From contig JAOTVV010000001.1 in assembly GCA_029863245.1 (NCBI GenBank), positions 310,001 to 374,000 on the forward strand: DNA of 64,000 nucleotides. Reading direction: 5' to 3'. Made by a program: the position numbers and the translations under genes. The notes under the pieces were generated by a model that did no database searches, had not been told where the DNA came from, and saw only the letters and a program-made list of their open reading frames with translations. Source of the DNA: Gemmatimonadota bacterium (lineage in GTDB: Bacteria > Gemmatimonadota > Gemmatimonadetes > Gemmatimonadales > GWC2-71-9). Within the stretch, counting starts at the first letter, position 1; each line of letters starts with the position of its first letter. Positions 29,824 to 37,282 of this stretch are shown here, in pieces.

Positions 29824-30339
29824 TCACACCTCTCTCTCTTGGGGAAACGGTGGAACGGACAGCAGCCAGAACCCGGCGGGCTCCCCGCGCTCGTCCACAT
29901 CGAGGAGGAGCTTGTCGGCGAGCGCCACGCCACGTGTGGGTCGCCGACCCCCGATCCCCACGTGGATGGTAGACTCGTCGGATGTCGCTTCCGCCCACAA
30001 CACCGCATCGACCTCCAGAACGGCGATCCCTGGCTGCGACGGGCGCGCTGGGACGACGAAGCGCCCCCGCTCGTCGGTAGCAGGCGGGCTGAGGTCTACC
30101 CGGGTCATCTCAGGCCAGACGACCACTTCCAGACCCTGCATCACCCCACTCACGAAATCGAGCGTCACAATGGCACCTTGGGCGTCCTCCAGCTCGATCG
30201 AGCCGGTCAGTCCTCTGGTGCTCTTGACGTCGAGATGGCAAGACAGGATCTCGGTCTCGGCGTCCCACGCATACGTGAGCGCCGGAAGATCACCGTCGAG
30301 CGGCTCGACTCTGCCGCTGAAAAGACTCGCCTCGGTCAT
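29824..30339 (-). CDS. Hypothetical beta-rich protein, 171 residues
   Basis: From ATG 30339 the protein runs MTEASLFSGRVEPLDGDLPA to LLSVPPFPQEREV. It contains the pattern YAWDAETEILSCHLDV followed by GAIVTLDFVSGVMQGLEVVVWP, reminiscent of the small DUF2283-type beta proteins but not decisive. No signal peptide and no catalytic motif are seen. It overlaps the end of the aminotransferase-like gene by 4 bases (ATGA), so it is co-translated with it. Whether it belongs with that gene or with NurA downstream is unclear. Confidence 0.7.
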   Translation of the reverse strand: MTEASLFSGRVEPLDGDLPALTYAWDAETEILSCHLDVKSTRGLTGSIELEDAQGAIVTLDFVSGVMQGLEVVVWPEMTRVDLSPPATDERGRFVVPARPSQPGIAVLEVDAVLWAEATSDESTIHVGIGGRRPTRGVALADKLLLDVDERGEPAGFWLLSVPPFPQEREV

Positions 30340-31565
30340 GACACGTCGCCTCCCGTAAGAGACCGCACGAAGGTGGCCAGGCCTTCCAGCCCCCGTTCGA
30401 TATCGCGACGGCTGGCGGCATAGTTGAGCCGCACCCATCGCTCGTCGCCAAACGTGCCGCCATGGGCGAGCGCGACACCGTGTTCTTCCACCAGCCGTTC
30501 GCAAAAGGACCGGGCCGATGTAATCGACCCACTGAAGAAGCCGTCCACGCGGAAGAAGAAGTAGTACGCTCCGAGCGGCTCGATGAACTCGACACCGGGG
30601 AGCTCGCGGCGAAAGTACGCCACCACGGCATCACGGTGCTCGCGCAGCGTGTCGAGCCACTGGGCCAGATCGTGGTCGGCGCGGTCGCTCGAGAGCGCCG
30701 CCGCCGCGCCACGCTGTGCCGGCCAGGGCACCGCCCCCATCGCGTGCTCCTGCACCCGGCCCATCGCGCGGCTGACCTCCGGCGGTGCCAAGGCCACCGC
30801 GATCTGCCAGCCCGCCAGCCCGTGGGAGGCGTCCAGTCCCGTGACCACGACCGCCCGCTGCAGCAACTCATCGGGCAGATCGAGGGCCGATGGGGCGGGA
30901 CCGGATCCGTAGTGCACACGGCGGTACGTCTCATCGCACACGATCCAGAGATTGCGCTCCAGTGCCCATTCAAACAGCGTCTTCAGCTCCGAGCGGGTAT
31001 ACACGGCGCCAGTCGGATTCACTGGCGTCGAGAGCACGAGTCCCGCGGTTCGGGCGTCACTCCGCGCGCCGAGATCCTGCGCACTCACCTTGAGGCTCCA
31101 CTCGAGGTCGCCCTGAATCGCAACCGGCGAGGCTCGCGCGAGCCGGACGAGACCTTCGAACGCAGGCCACCCAGGCTTGGGAAGCAGAACGTGATCACCG
31201 TGTTCGAACAGGGAGAAGAACGCGGTGAAGCATGCGTGTCGCGCGCCGGCCGACACCACGACGTGGTCGGCGTTCACGGGCCGACCTCCGGACAGCAGCG
31301 ACAGGTACCGCGCCGCGGCAGCCCGTAACTCCAGCCCGCCGGCGGCCGACGTCGACCCATGCCCGTCGCGAAGCGTCTTCAGCGCCGCCTCGAGCGAGCC
31401 GCGCGGAGGGTCAATCGCCGGCTCCTCCCGAGCGAGGTCCGCAACGAGAGCGCCAGCAACGCGTCGACGCTCCACCTCGCGATCGAGAGACCCGTGTGCG
31501 TCAGACGCGAGGTGCGCGAGGTTCCGCGACAAGCGGACGCTCGGGGAATCGGACTCGGGTGTCAT
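30336..31565 (-). CDS. Class I/II aminotransferase-fold protein lacking the catalytic lysine
   Basis: The fold is clear: GLELRAAAARYLS near residue 80, KPGWPAFEGLV at 130, TPVNPTGAVYT at 180, CDETYRRVHYG at 210 with the pyridine-N Asp211 and Tyr214, and WVRLNYAAS near 379 with the carboxylate Arg. Where functional members have S-[KR]-x-x-G-x-x-G-x-R, this protein reads LDASHGLAGWQIAV. The Schiff-base Lys position is Ala246 and the phosphate Arg is Gln254. I checked the codons on the minus strand and no frameshift is needed. It is 409 residues with a normal start overlapped by 4 bases with the DmpA-type gene. I infer a PLP-independent pseudoenzyme or regulator. Confidence 0.85.
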   Translation of the reverse strand: MTPESDSPSVRLSRNLAHLASDAHGSLDREVERRRVAGALVADLAREEPAIDPPRGSLEAALKTLRDGHGSTSAAGGLELRAAAARYLSLLSGGRPVNADHVVVSAGARHACFTAFFSLFEHGDHVLLPKPGWPAFEGLVRLARASPVAIQGDLEWSLKVSAQDLGARSDARTAGLVLSTPVNPTGAVYTRSELKTLFEWALERNLWIVCDETYRRVHYGSGPAPSALDLPDELLQRAVVVTGLDASHGLAGWQIAVALAPPEVSRAMGRVQEHAMGAVPWPAQRGAAAALSSDRADHDLAQWLDTLREHRDAVVAYFRRELPGVEFIEPLGAYYFFFRVDGFFSGSITSARSFCERLVEEHGVALAHGGTFGDERWVRLNYAASRRDIERGLEGLATFVRSLTGGDVS

Positions 31566-32740
31566 CGTTCCACGATACCGTGACGCTTGAGAATCTCCAG
31601 CGTGGCATCGATGGGCAGCGCCTCGCCGACGCCGCGATGGCCGCGGACGGTGGTGGCGTAGAGCAAGGAGTTGTAGATCGCCTCCTCGGTGGCCTCCAGT
31701 GCGGCCAGGAACAGCGGACTCATCTGGTCATTCGGCACCTCCGTCGCCTCGCGCGCCGCCGCCACCCGCACCGTGCTGAACGCAATGACGTAGTCGCCGG
31801 ACCCGTTCGTCATCGCGCTCCCGGTCCGGGCCAGCCCTGCCAGCGCTCGCCGCGCCAACCGCTCCAAGTTGCGGTGCGAGAGGGGCGCGTCGGTCGCCAG
31901 CACGATCATGATGGACCCGTCCGCTCGATCCTCGGTGGAGGGGTCGACGCCGCTGTCGCCCCGTATACCGTCGGGTGCGGCTTCGAGCCTGTCCCGGAGA
32001 TAGTACCGTCCCATCTCCCGCCCGACCGGCGCGCCGGCGATGCTGAGCATCCCGCCGAAATTGCTCTGCACCAGCGCGCCAACCGTCCACCCACCCATCG
32101 CGGGTGAGAGCATCCGACTCGCGGTACCGATCCCACCCTTCCAGCCGAACGCCATCGTGCCCCGTCCGGCCCCAACGCTCCCCTGCGCCACGGGACCCCC
32201 ACGGGCACCACGGATCGCCTCGAGCACGTGATGCTCCTCGATCGGTCGGCGCCGGATGTCGTTGAGGAACCCGTCGTTCGTTTCGCCCACTACGGGGTTT
32301 GCCGACCGCACCGATTCGTTGCCTGGAAGCTCGAGCAAGTAGGTGAGGACGGCATCCGCTGCCCGCGGCACGCAGAGGGTGCAGGTGAGCACCACAGGAG
32401 ACTCCAGCTCCCCGAGCTCCTGCACCTGGGTGAACCCGGCCAACTTGCCGAAGCCGTTGCCGACCACCACCGCTGCCGGAACCTTGTCACGGAAGACGTT
32501 GCCCCCGTGCGGCAGCACTGCCGTCACCCCGGTGTTGATGGAATCACCCAGCGCGAGCGTCACGTGGCCCACGCGGACCCCTGCCACGTCGGTGATCGCA
32601 TTGAGGGCGCCCGTGGGGAGGATCCCCGGTTGAACACCGAGCGAGCGAATCCCAACCCGCTCCTGCGCGTCAGCCGGCATCGCGAGCGCCAACCCAGCAG
32701 CCAGCCAACCGACAATGAACCTCGAACCAGATCGTGTCAC
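31562..32740 (-). CDS. P1-family (DmpA/S58) aminopeptidase, secreted
   Basis: This 392-residue protein has a Sec signal (FIVGWLAAGLALAMPADA) and the DmpA fold. NAITDVAGVRVGHVT is the N-terminal family block, GSVGAGRGTMAFGWKGGIG follows in the middle, and TVGALVQSNFGG contains the expected nucleophile Ser226 at the autoproteolytic site. The C-terminal NSLLYATTVRGH closes the fold. The family cleaves N-terminal amino acids from peptides or beta-peptides after self-cleavage into two chains. It lies 23 bases after the selenoprotein gene and overlaps the aminotransferase-like gene by 4 bases, so they form an operon. Confidence 0.9.
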   Translation of the reverse strand: MTRSGSRFIVGWLAAGLALAMPADAQERVGIRSLGVQPGILPTGALNAITDVAGVRVGHVTLALGDSINTGVTAVLPHGGNVFRDKVPAAVVVGNGFGKLAGFTQVQELGELESPVVLTCTLCVPRAADAVLTYLLELPGNESVRSANPVVGETNDGFLNDIRRRPIEEHHVLEAIRGARGGPVAQGSVGAGRGTMAFGWKGGIGTASRMLSPAMGGWTVGALVQSNFGGMLSIAGAPVGREMGRYYLRDRLEAAPDGIRGDSGVDPSTEDRADGSIMIVLATDAPLSHRNLERLARRALAGLARTGSAMTNGSGDYVIAFSTVRVAAAREATEVPNDQMSPLFLAALEATEEAIYNSLLYATTVRGHRGVGEALPIDATLEILKRHGIVER

Positions 32741-32763: not shown

Positions 32764-33600
32764 CTAGGCATCAACGGGGGACGGTGGTTGCGTCGCCATC
32801 CCGACCGGCGCCGGATAGGTCCCCCGCTTCCAGCGAAAAGGGAGCTCGAGCAGTCCGCCCGGCTCCGCGATACGGGTCACCGCACCCAACGTGGCTCGCA
32901 GCACCGCCTGCTGCTGTGCCGCGTTCCCGGGCTCACCCACCACCTGACCCAACCGAAACGGCACGAACACGTTCCGCGGCGCCGGCGTGCCCTCGATCAT
33001 GCTGCGCACCACTCCCAGCGACACCGTGGGCATCCCACGCGCTTCCAGGATCCGCGCAACCAGTCCGACCGACCGGTGGCACGTCGTTCACCCCGGCACC
33101 GTCAGCACCAGGCCCACACCATCCATCGCAAACACCTTCCCAATCTCAGCGGCACTCCGATCGAGTAGCCGTTCGAGCTGAGGTCCCGACACGTGGCCCA
33201 TGAGGCCCACGTGCCGTGGCGCGACGGAACCGATCTCCCGCGCGGCGACGAGTTCCCGAAGACGGTCGATCGGAAACACACAGTTCACGTCCTCGTCGGC
33301 GGCCCGGTGATCGTAGTAGTCGTGCGTGATGCGGAGCGCCCCGGCCGCGGCGTCCCCGGGGATGATCCGAAACGACCCGTCGCCCTCCGGGTCCTGCATG
33401 TCGAACGGAGGATCGTGTGCCAAGTGCACGCCGCCCGCCGTGACGATGCCGACCCGCGAGGCCGACAGCAACGTGGCGAGCCGCGCCAGCGGCGGGAGTG
33501 GCACCTCCCCGACAGTGCCCGATCGGCGGCCATAGCGTTCGGACAGGCTTGGAACCCGGGCATAGACGCGGGACATCAGCTGATTCCACCAGCGCGTCAT
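32764..33600 (-). CDS. Selenoprotein of the glycine/betaine/D-proline reductase selenoprotein-B-like family (in-frame TGA as Sec)
   Basis: Two frames that look like separate ORFs (33600-33088 and 33033-32764) are one gene: the intervening TGA at 33090-33088 is in frame and both sides match one family. Reading through gives VLTVPG, then Sec171, then TTCHRSVGLVARILEARGMP, that is U-x-x-C-H-x-S-V-G. In relatives I recall, the same place holds C-x-x-C-H-x-(S/T)-V-G. The C-terminal NVFVPFRLGQVVGEPGNAAQ is also a family block. A SECIS-like hairpin begins 10 bases after the TGA. Total length is 278 residues with Sec. The family contains thiol/selenol oxidoreductase-type proteins; the substrate here is unknown. 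It heads the minus-strand run with DmpA-type peptidase 23 bases downstream. No selenocysteine genes are in this window. Confidence 0.85.
33054..33082 (-). promoter_or_regulatory. SECIS-like hairpin after the in-frame TGA
   Basis: Downstream of TGA (33090-33088), ACCGGTC (33077-33071) pairs with GACTGGT (33065-33059), including one G-U pair, and leaves the 5-base loop GGTCG. After one mismatch, GTGC (33082-33079) pairs with GCGC (33057-33054). The loop GGU begins 17 bases after TGA; in E. coli fdhF the loop GGUCU begins at a comparable distance. This is the structure bacterial SelB recognises to recode UGA. The same bases encode TTCHRSVGLVA, so the structure overlaps conserved protein sequence. 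Confidence 0.75.
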
Positions 33601-33706
33601 CGAGAACCTCGGGAAATGGCGACCGTCCGTTGCGTCGGAACCGAGTGCAAACTACCATGCTTCCGGGAACCGTACCACCAGCACCTCTTTGACAATCGAG
33701 GGTGTC

Positions 33707-35032
33707 GTGTCCTGGACGTTTGCGCCGAAATTCGATGCCGCGCACCGCGCAGCTGTTGAGACGGGGAATCCCCTCATCTACGAGGGACCACCGGCGGGCT
33801 GGGGAGTGCGCCCACTCTTCGAGCAGATCCCTGCCTGCGCATCGCCGGGGCTGGCGACCCTCGTGCTCGCCCCCGACCTCCCCACCGCCGACGACCTCGT
33901 CGTCGAGGCTCGTGCGTGCCGTGATCTCGAGCCCGTGCATCAGGCCAGCGGACTCGCGCGGACCCGTCAACGACTTGGGGCGCAACGGGTCGGGACCCTG
34001 GTCGCATCTCCATCAGAGATCATGCAACTCCTGGAGCAGGGCGGGCTCGGCCTGGACCGCATCCAGCGCGTTGTCGTGTGTTGGCCAGAGCATCACGCGC
34101 GGCTGGGAGCTACCGGGCACCTGGACACGATCCTCGGCGAATGCGGCCAGGCACAGCGGTTCGTGGTGACCGCAGACGCCGGCGGCGTGTCCGAGTTCAT
34201 GACTCGCCACGCGCGCCGTGCTCCGACGCTCGCGACCACCACCCTGCCGGTCACGCCCACCACCCCGGCTCGGTACGCCGTCGTGGGCCGGCCCCATCTC
34301 GTCGCCACTGTGCGCGCCGCCCTCGACACCCTCTGCCCCACGTCGGTGCTGATCTGGGATCCGACGGCCGCGACGGCGCGATGGAGCGACTATCGTGCGG
34401 AGGACGGGATCAGCATCGGGCACGACGTCGGCACCCAGCAGGTGGACCTCGTGATTGGCACGGAGGTTCCGACAGTCGAGGCGCTGCGCGCGATGCACGA
34501 GATCGCCGGACGCGTGATCCTGTTCGTCCGTCCGTGGCAGCAAGCGTATCTGCGGCGCATTGCCGCACCCCTGACGGCGATCCATGTCGATGCGGAGGTA
34601 GACCGGGCCCGCGACGCGCGGGCACGCCTGCGGGCGGCAGTGCGGGAGCGCATCGAGGGTGGAGGGACCGAGGACAGTTTGCTCGCCCTCGCGCCGCTCC
34701 TCGACGAGCACGATCCGGCGTTGGTCGCCGCGGCGTTGCTCGCGATGCGGGACACCGCGGACACCTCCGGTCCATCCCTCCCCGAGGGCGTGCCGCTGTG
34801 GGTGCACGTGCGCCTCAGCATCGGGCGCCGCGAGGGTCTTCGGCCCGGCGACGTCGTCGGTGCCCTGCTCAATGCCGCCGGCCTCGCAAAGGACGACGTC
34901 GGGCGGGTGGACCTGCGGGAAAACTTCACGGTGGTCGAAGTACGCGCAGAGGCCGCCGATGCCGCCCGCAGGGGGCTCGACGGCCTCTCGCTGAAGGGCC
35001 GGTCCGTGTCGGCCCGCTTCGACCGGAAGTAA
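33707..35032 (+). CDS. Degenerate DEAD-box helicase with C-terminal DbpA-type RNA-binding domain
   Basis: This 441-residue protein ends in a clear DbpA RRM (about 366-441: WVHVRLSIGRREGLRPGDVV, then GLSLKGRSVSARFD). The first 350 residues follow two RecA-like halves but lack helicase motifs: motif I is GPPAGWGV (27-34) instead of A-x-T-G-x-G-K-T, and motif II is CWPEHHA (125-131) instead of D-E-A-D. It therefore cannot bind ATP in the normal way. A TTG start at 33689 is also possible; GTG 33707 is preferred because CGAGGGT precedes it at good spacing. I infer an RNA-binding scaffold in ribosome-assembly biology, as DbpA domains contact 23S rRNA. Confidence 0.8.
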   Translation: MSWTFAPKFDAAHRAAVETGNPLIYEGPPAGWGVRPLFEQIPACASPGLATLVLAPDLPTADDLVVEARACRDLEPVHQASGLARTRQRLGAQRVGTLVASPSEIMQLLEQGGLGLDRIQRVVVCWPEHHARLGATGHLDTILGECGQAQRFVVTADAGGVSEFMTRHARRAPTLATTTLPVTPTTPARYAVVGRPHLVATVRAALDTLCPTSVLIWDPTAATARWSDYRAEDGISIGHDVGTQQVDLVIGTEVPTVEALRAMHEIAGRVILFVRPWQQAYLRRIAAPLTAIHVDAEVDRARDARARLRAAVRERIEGGGTEDSLLALAPLLDEHDPALVAAALLAMRDTADTSGPSLPEGVPLWVHVRLSIGRREGLRPGDVVGALLNAAGLAKDDVGRVDLRENFTVVEVRAEAADAARRGLDGLSLKGRSVSARFDRK

Positions 35033-36118: not shown

Positions 36119-37282
36119 ATGCTCAACGTGGGTCTCACCGGCAACGTGGCGAGTGGCAAGTCGACCGTCGTGACACATTTCGCTGCCTGGGGCGCTACCG
36201 TGTTGGATGCCGACCGCCTGGTGCGAGAGGAACAGGCGCCGGGAACGCCGACCCACGACGCTATCATCCGCGCATTCGGGAGAGAGGTGCTGCTGGCCGA
36301 CGGCACGCTCGATCGGGTTTGGCTTCGTCGTCGCATCCTGCAGGACGACACGGCCCGGGCTCGACTCAACGGAATCGTCCATCCCGCCGTCCGGAAGCGG
36401 CGTGCACGGCTCGCGGCCGCAGCGGGCGCGCGTGGCGATGCGGTCCTAGTCAACGACATTCCGCTGCTGTTCGAGGTCCTGGATCCGGACCAGTTCGATC
36501 TCGTGGTGCTCGTCGACGCACCGGCCGACGTGCGGCGCCAGCGCCTGGTGAAACACCGCGGCCTCGCGACAGAGGACGCGGACCGGCTCATCGAGATGCA
36601 ACTGCCGTCTGTCGAGAAGCGCGAGCGCAGCCACATTGTCATCGACAACACCGGAAGCCTCGCGGCTCTCGAGCGATCGGCGTGGGACGCCTGGCGCGAG
36701 CTCCGCCAGGCGGCGGCTCGCACGACCGACGGTGGTCGCGGGCCGTTGCTGATCGCCATCGCCCACGGTCAAGACCTCATCGCCACAATGCGCGGCACGG
36801 TGGCGCGGTATCGAGATGCCGACGTCGAGATCCACGTGGTGAGCGCAACGACCACACCTTCAGTCCCGGGGTTTTCCAGAATCGTGGCCCTCGGACGGTC
36901 ACCGGGCACCCTCGATCCCGATGACGCCACTGCAACGAGCGCCCTGGCGAAGGCGGCTACCGATGGCCGGCCAACAACGGTCGTCACCTTCGGGCCCGAC
37001 GGACTGAACGGCGATGCCGATCACCGCGCCGTGCACGCCTGGACCCGCCAGGCCCTCTCGCACCTCGCTGCGCCCCCGCGCCTCATCTACCTGGCAAACG
37101 CTCCCCGCCTCGAGGCCGACCTGAAGGACCCCGTCCTGTTCGGCATCGATGTCCGTCCCTGGGCGGAGCAGGGAGTTCCAGATGAACGGCCCACCACGAT
37201 CCCCTGCGGGGTGTCGATGAGATCCACGCAGGCACAGGCCAAGATGCCAGGTCGCGAGTGGTACCGAGTGGCCGCGTCATAG
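36119..37282 (+). CDS. coaE: Dephospho-CoA kinase fused to a degenerate PIG-L/LmbE-type domain
   Basis: Residues 1-200 are CoaE: P-loop GLTGNVASGKST (6-17), LDADRLVREEQAPGTP, the lid-type residues in FDLVVLVDAPADVRRQRL, and the C-terminal ERSHIVIDNTGSL. This part makes CoA from dephospho-CoA. Residues about 208-387 are an extra domain that matches the PIG-L/LmbE family: LLIAIAHGQDL with HVVSATTT, then VVTFGPDGLNGDADHRAVHAWTR. Its metal site is damaged: AHPDDE has become AHGQDL, and the second GHxDH reads GDADH. I infer a catalytically dead partner domain. Fusion of CoaE with such a domain is unusual. The ATG has no clear Shine-Dalgarno. Confidence 0.88.
   Translation: MLNVGLTGNVASGKSTVVTHFAAWGATVLDADRLVREEQAPGTPTHDAIIRAFGREVLLADGTLDRVWLRRRILQDDTARARLNGIVHPAVRKRRARLAAAAGARGDAVLVNDIPLLFEVLDPDQFDLVVLVDAPADVRRQRLVKHRGLATEDADRLIEMQLPSVEKRERSHIVIDNTGSLAALERSAWDAWRELRQAAARTTDGGRGPLLIAIAHGQDLIATMRGTVARYRDADVEIHVVSATTTPSVPGFSRIVALGRSPGTLDPDDATATSALAKAATDGRPTTVVTFGPDGLNGDADHRAVHAWTRQALSHLAAPPRLIYLANAPRLEADLKDPVLFGIDVRPWAEQGVPDERPTTIPCGVSMRSTQAQAKMPGREWYRVAAS

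Follow-up and report, generated by a model that had tools for sequence, protein, structure and literature searches.

Does the pair of adjacent minus-strand open reading frames (ORFs) lying near the middle of the window, the whole 64,000-nucleotide stretch of gemmatimonad DNA analysed here, represent two genes or one selenoprotein gene in which a TGA is read as selenocysteine (Sec), and what reaction might the product of such a gene carry out?

A single gene of probable selenoprotein type across a TGA

Translation with table 11 without recoding gives two separate ORFs at 33600-33088 (170 aa) and 33033-32764 (89 aa), the split that the sequence-only reading had expected of a standard annotation pipeline. 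Both ORFs share one minus-strand frame and the TGA at 33090-33088 is its sole interruption, as had also been claimed; read through this one codon, the frame runs from an ATG at 33600 to a TAG at 32766-32764 (feature 32764-33600) and encodes 278 aa with U171. A candidate ribosome binding site, GAGG (33607-33610, minus strand), was spotted by eye six bases before the ATG. The readthrough product contains the predicted redox motif U171-T-T-C174-H-R-S-V-G (UTTCHRSVG), in which Sec171 opens a UxxC motif and Cys174 (codon at 33079-33081, minus strand) is the partner cysteine. The proposal that the halves form one family block also held, with both matching the TIGR04483 profile in order (92.1 and 48.5 bits apart, 160.7 bits joined). 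In comparison with the homologous locus L031, conservation is 58% before the TGA and 66% after it, and at the level of aligned sequence the segment after the TGA is conserved as strongly as the segment before. This is a single selenoprotein-type gene, not two, and an example of what stop-codon-based annotation would cut in two. A composition-based scan of the window gave six TGA-joined frames, five of them besides this one, and none of those five has UxxC at the TGA.

A search with the protein across 394 genomes from the window's class gave a match in 33, the window's own genome included, and a profile search of the class, in which at most six first-look candidates were scored per genome, gave a match in 32. 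Some carriers are partial: G226 matches only over residues 225-275 (E 1.4e-4) and is absent from the profile search, G282 matches in broken pieces and G295 is cut short. From 34 match rows 30 loci were counted (G295:C395, G223:C75, G282:C404 and G226:C327 were left out), and these were joined by six further loci from named contigs of Desulfuromonadales, deltaproteobacterial assemblies and Candidatus Chloroploca to form a 36-locus set that includes the window's own copy (L030). Of these 36 loci, counting the own copy, 35 have TGA as the codon for residue 171 and one, L059, has TGC. Without the own copy the count is Sec in 34 of 35 homologues and Cys in one, in line with the suggestion that relatives be checked for either residue at this position. 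In alignment A1, which has 34 rows (L029, L030 and L048 left out, the window kept), both Sec/Cys171 and Cys174 are invariant in 34/34 rows, and Cys174 is also the same residue in all four of the PrdB comparison proteins introduced below. The Cys homologue L059 (TGC at 1906-1908) groups with Sec forms, although SelA and a tRNA-Sec match of 73.2 bits are found in its genome, G306; this suggests a change from Sec to Cys. Two further Cys forms of the family, from Roseomonas and Haematobacter (L097:7758-8666 and L098:7710-8636), adjoin a gene annotated SelO and cobalamin genes, respectively.

The window's own assembly (3.68 Mb in 75 contigs, 93.94% complete) contains the whole set of selenocysteine genes that the sequence-only reading had named as a check, each with a match over its cut-off: selA (510.8 bits), selB (349.5 bits), selD (366.4 bits, with one TGA) and selC, a tRNA-Sec match of 75.7 bits that ARAGORN calls SeC with anticodon tca. 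The selD gene (L019, G000:C46:58670-59602) is apparently a selenoprotein gene too, since its TGA lies at the active-site position (SHGAG-U-ACK, or GAGUACK); the selD genes beside some relatives of the window gene have Cys there. SelA is over cut-off in 283 of the 394 genomes of the class, and selenocysteine use is therefore very common in it. SelA matches with E 1.2e-124 or better, as read from the listings, occur in 31 of the 33 carrier genomes versus 252 of the 361 others (Fisher p 0.0012, kinship uncorrected). The two exceptions among the carriers are G284, which has a tRNA-Sec match of 73.7 bits, and G272 (86% complete), which has the TGA gene, no SelA match and a best tRNA-Sec match of 48.2 bits that is near the scores of other tRNAs and unconvincing.

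Downstream of the TGA, a hairpin of seven pairs with loop GGUCG (33070-33066) occupies 33059-33077 on the minus strand; it starts 10 nt after the TGA and its loop lies 17 nt after it, so that the geometry read from the letters was reproduced in every particular. The minimum free energy (MFE) fold adds five pairs that extend the hairpin to 33053-33083. Stability is modest: the 46 nt from the UGA have an MFE of -20.4 kcal/mol (z -1.91), and 7 of 200 shuffles were at least as stable. The hairpin fits the bSECIS model as outlined in PMC13188914 (a stem of 4-16, a loop of 3-9 with G in its first two positions, a spacing of 16-37 and an MFE <= -7.5), and so, when the model was scripted, did 34 of the 35 TGA-bearing sequences, own copy included; L035 fails, and L042, L048, L050 and L057 fit only via a hairpin at a different spacing. 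The same generic rules are passed by 641 of all 1424 TGA triplets in the window (45%), so a fit alone says little and was rejected as proof of Sec; as the rules do not discriminate, we relied on covariation and codon use.

Covariation was scored on 35 sequences, 34 of them distinct, against 500 shuffles with kinship uncorrected. Across the seven pairs, 94.1% of cells are paired, against 14.7-41.2% in slid controls; both-side changes occur in 29 cells against a shuffled mean of 7.4, and the covariation score is 0.481 against 0.212. For each of these three measures (paired-cell share, both-side changes and score) 0/500 shuffles were as high. Two weaker measures were the number of pairs with a both-side change (4 against 2.5; 33/500 shuffles as high) and the number of further pair types (13 against 10.0; 5/500). 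Base 1 of codon 177 pairs with base 3 of codon 179 as UA, UG, AU, GC or GU, depending on the sequence, and four sequences (L035, L042, L048 and L050) have the non-pairing AG there; the outermost pair of the hairpin is lost in 7 of 34. Where codon 179 encodes glycine, GGA is used in 19 of 28 cases, against 67 of 588 (11.4%) glycine codons elsewhere in these genes (p 2.9e-12, kinship uncorrected). The hairpin shows compensatory changes and is selected as RNA. Its claimed likeness to bacterial SECIS elements accordingly stands as regards model fit and covariation, and is weak as regards fit to the generic rules taken alone.

AlphaFold2, run on alignment A1 with Cys at position 171, predicted one confident chain (mean pLDDT 92.5, pTM 0.91) in which residue 171 would follow a strand (164-168) and precede a helix (172-187). 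A Foldseek search with this model found no solved structure at E 1e-3 or better (best 4.9e-3, with low TM-scores), and for this reason nothing about the active site was drawn from the fold. Searching solved structures by sequence brought up a single match, which was irrelevant (E 0.25).

Family placement and the search for a PrdA partner

The joined protein matches TIGR04483 (D-proline reductase protein PrdB) over residues 34-258 with 160.7 bits, below the cut-off of 300, and narrowly passes the gathering cut-off of PF07355 (GRDB), with 23.6 bits against 22. Three annotated PrdB proteins, encoded on plasmids of Terrisporobacter, Peptoclostridium and Ligilactobacillus, score 422.6, 310.2 and 402.5 bits against TIGR04483; relatives occur in 24 plasmid records, of which six were examined. 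In a tree of 42 proteins, midpoint-rooted, the window protein is grouped with L031, L032 and L033 (99/92), and this group adjoins four PrdB proteins (95/85), three of whose rows were flagged for odd composition. Three of the four carry the annotation PrdB; the Acetoanaerobium protein, the fourth, comes from a record with no annotation at that place. All four have a TGA at the same codon, and 11 of the 13 invariant columns of A1 are identical in all four. On profile and tree evidence the protein is placed in the PrdB/GrdB superfamily, nearest PrdB (TIGR04483), which sharpens the correct assignment to the glycine/betaine/proline reductase B-like families made in the sequence-only reading.

An unusual trait lay beyond the view of that reading: PrdA, the pyruvoyl partner of PrdB, was not found. 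The PrdA model TIGR04480 matched in none of 36 carrier genomes, comprising the 33 of the class and the genomes of L025, L026 and L028 (those of L024, L027 and L029 were left out of this search), and in both of two prdA-carrying plasmids used as controls. PF09338, which recognises PrdA proteins (79.2 and 94.2 bits in positive controls), had no match in the window's own genome (93.94% complete), a result uninformative by itself because no control matched there, and matched in one of the 394 class genomes, G223, in which TIGR04480 found nothing. At G223:C75:4719-6625 (L090, L095) this PF09338 (GrdE-type) gene has as its neighbour another PrdB/GrdB-like match, more distant and with an in-frame TGA. 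The absence of PrdA rests mainly on draft genomes. The Peptoclostridium PrdB, which is over the TIGR04483 cut-off, likewise has no prdA annotated within 6 kb, and an absent neighbour alone therefore proves little.

Selenoproteins of the PrdB type are well represented in earlier surveys. The passages of those papers that deal with PrdB give 42 in the Sargasso Sea (PMC1088965), 235 in GOS (PMC2398784) and further cases in genomes including Anaeromyxobacter and Geobacter (PMC1794560); they place the type among the commonest selenoproteins of seawater surveys, under the name proline reductase (PMC1088965, PMC2398784, PMC9402790). The term 'PrdA' is absent from the main text of PMC2398784 and PMC1794560, and a search returned no occurrence for PMC1088965. 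Searches of mainly open literature brought up no evident report of PrdB without PrdA, and none was found that joined gemmatimonads with 'D-proline reductase'. The sequence-only reading described the function of such proteins outside clostridia as little known; the kind itself is not new, because PrdB-type UxxC selenoproteins outside clostridia were described in 2005-2006 (in the passages concerned of PMC1088965 and PMC1794560).

Genomic surroundings

Immediately downstream on the minus strand lies a gene of peptidase family S58 (31562-32740; PF03576, 383.1 bits) with a start that by eye resembles a signal peptide; its GTG start codon follows the stop of the prdB-like gene by 23 nt. A class I/II aminotransferase gene (30336-31565, minus strand; PF00155, 150.6 bits) overlaps the stop of the S58 gene by 4 nt, and no NCBIfam cut-off was reached among the best 25 of its 61 matches. 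Beyond it is a conserved ORF (29824-30321, minus strand; listed with 226 aa, conservation setting in near residue 62) that matched neither Pfam nor NCBIfam at E 0.001 and for which tblastn gave matches in L061, beside the aminotransferase gene, and in L062, farther off. Upstream and divergent is a gene with a C-terminal DbpA RNA-binding domain (33689-35032, plus strand; PF03880, 68.2 bits), which served as a synteny anchor. The prdB-like gene apparently heads an operon with the S58 peptidase and aminotransferase genes.

Within the window clade, the DbpA-domain gene occupies the same upstream place and the aminotransferase gene lies downstream in all four loci. The S58 gene is beside the selenoprotein gene in two of the four, the window and G389 (L061), in the same order; the examined stretches of G223 and G292 have no S58 match, and there the aminotransferase gene follows directly. 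Outside this clade the window gene's neighbours are shared in no case except for CoaE-like matches in L069, L071 and L074. The dephospho-CoA kinase of the window (36119-37282) is extended at its C-terminus by a part with a weak match to PIG-L (34.6 bits).

A second clade (L065:2540-3747, L072:8422-10694, L078:12615-14881 and L080:2529-4952) has surroundings of its own. A conserved ORF of about 96 aa, to which no family was assigned, precedes the gene in all four loci, and selD (418-422 bits) follows in three (L072, L078 and L080), with a SelB-like piece beyond selD in L080. In L065 a nitrilase-family gene precedes the selenoprotein gene; it had no tblastn match in the other examined stretches, and no literature was found that joined nitrilase, selenoprotein, SelD and operon. 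With contexts that differ between clades, the neighbourhood was rejected as a family-wide guide to function.

Proposed function and comparison with known systems

The locus probably encodes a true selenoprotein of the PrdB/GrdB superfamily that has no PrdA, bears the Sec171/Cys174 pair and stands in an apparent, amino-acid-linked operon. The ribosome would insert Sec at the UGA of residue 171, steered by the hairpin just downstream, and would draw on SelA, SelB, SelD and tRNA-Sec, whose genes lie elsewhere in the genome. Since no PrdA or GrdE-type pyruvoyl partner was found, the protein would most likely act alone or with an unrelated partner. D-proline reductase offers an analogy: in the proposal as given in PMC3091704, the pyruvoyl group of PrdA binds D-proline, whose alpha carbon is then attacked by the Sec of PrdB, and the resulting selenoether is cleaved by a cysteine of PrdB to give a mixed selenide-sulphide. 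Because the Sec/Cys pair and most of the shared residues are kept and the pyruvoyl partner was not found, we propose a Sec171/Cys174 cycle in which the Sec171 selenol would attack an electrophilic substrate, Cys174 would resolve the selenium intermediate to form a selenide-sulphide bond, and a cellular thiol system would then reduce that bond. Such a substrate would need no pyruvoyl anchoring.

The S58 peptidase and aminotransferase genes of the apparent operon lead us to guess, tentatively, that the substrate is small and derived from an amino acid or a peptide. The S58 gene adjoins the selenoprotein gene in only two of the four window-clade loci, and contexts that differ across the family fix no single substrate, so the guess is a weak one.

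The main rival is a stand-alone selenoperoxidase, in which Sec171 would reduce peroxides and Cys174 would resolve, with no cleavage of an organic substrate. It takes this rank because PMC3091704 cites a reference whose title reports peroxidase activity of the relative GrdB, and it could also account for a UxxC pair without a pyruvoyl partner and for the one alphaproteobacterial Cys relative that adjoins a gene annotated SelO. It is nevertheless unlikely, given an operon that looks amino-acid-linked and the 11 of 13 invariant columns held in common with PrdB, which suggest that a substrate pocket has been kept. The selenoperoxidase reading agrees with the preferred one on a selenoprotein without PrdA and differs in the substrate, so the confidences placed in the two overlap.

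A true B subunit of D-proline reductase, with a PrdA that is hidden by a gap in the assembly or has diverged beyond detection, would suit the tree position next to PrdB, the shared UxxCHR motif and a genome that is 93.94% complete; it is made very improbable by a PrdA model that matched both control plasmids and none of the 36 carrier genomes, by the single match of PF09338 in 394 genomes although this family recognises PrdA, and by a TIGR04483 score of 160.7 bits that falls short of the cut-off of 300 and of the 422.6, 310.2 and 402.5 bits of annotated PrdB. That the TGA is an ordinary stop, leaving two genes or a decayed one, is scarcely credible: table 11 does yield two ORFs and 45% of the window's TGAs do satisfy the generic SECIS rules, but the TGA recurs at 35 of the 36 loci (counting the own copy), the sequence beyond it is strongly conserved, the hairpin covaries, the Sec machinery is present in the genome and AlphaFold2 gives one confident single-chain fold.

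Beyond this locus, there is an even chance, in our judgement, that a widespread branch of PrdB selenoproteins, with at least one group beside true PrdB, works without a pyruvoyl subunit on a substrate of its own. The partner that the proline reductase reaction requires was not found in the 36 carrier genomes searched. If the branch exists as proposed, much of the ocean's 'proline reductase' may be a separate enzyme, the link to the marine proteins being hypothetical. A small protein that neighbours PrdB in the tree, with UxxC and without PrdA, also offers a direct test case for the role of selenium minus the pyruvoyl subunit.

Among known systems, the 'PrdB' proteins of marine metagenomes, Anaeromyxobacter and Geobacter (PMC1088965, PMC2398784, PMC1794560) resemble the window protein in occurring outside clostridia and in having UxxC where the passages concerned give the motif; they differ in being named proline reductase there, with PrdA unmentioned in those passages, and were compared with the window protein by description only. 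FarB of Synergistota, a GrdB-like protein proposed to be a fluoroacetate reductase, is likewise a relative of GrdB that acts on another substrate with Sec as the proposed nucleophile, but as described in PMC10838667 its operon includes a GrdE-like partner, farE. With GrdB, GrdF and GrdH, the selenoprotein B of glycine, sarcosine and betaine reductase (PF07355, TIGR01918), the window protein shares a homologous C-terminal part with UxxC. It lacks their N-terminal part, matching only profile positions 221-411 of 431 in TIGR01917/TIGR01918 (full length about 431 aa) and scoring 37.3 bits against the TIGR01918 cut-off of 65.45, and its own genome has no PF09338 (GrdE-type) match. PrdB itself differs in reaching the TIGR04483 cut-off that the window protein misses, in its partner PrdA, which was not found in the window's genome, in a MGGGG motif where the window protein has MGHV, and in its neighbours, which in Ligilactobacillus are prdA, prdD and a racemase rather than an S58 peptidase and an aminotransferase. 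It is nonetheless PrdB that the protein resembles in having UxxC in the same place with an in-frame TGA (UxxCHR), in 11 of the 13 invariant residues and in a neighbouring position in the tree.
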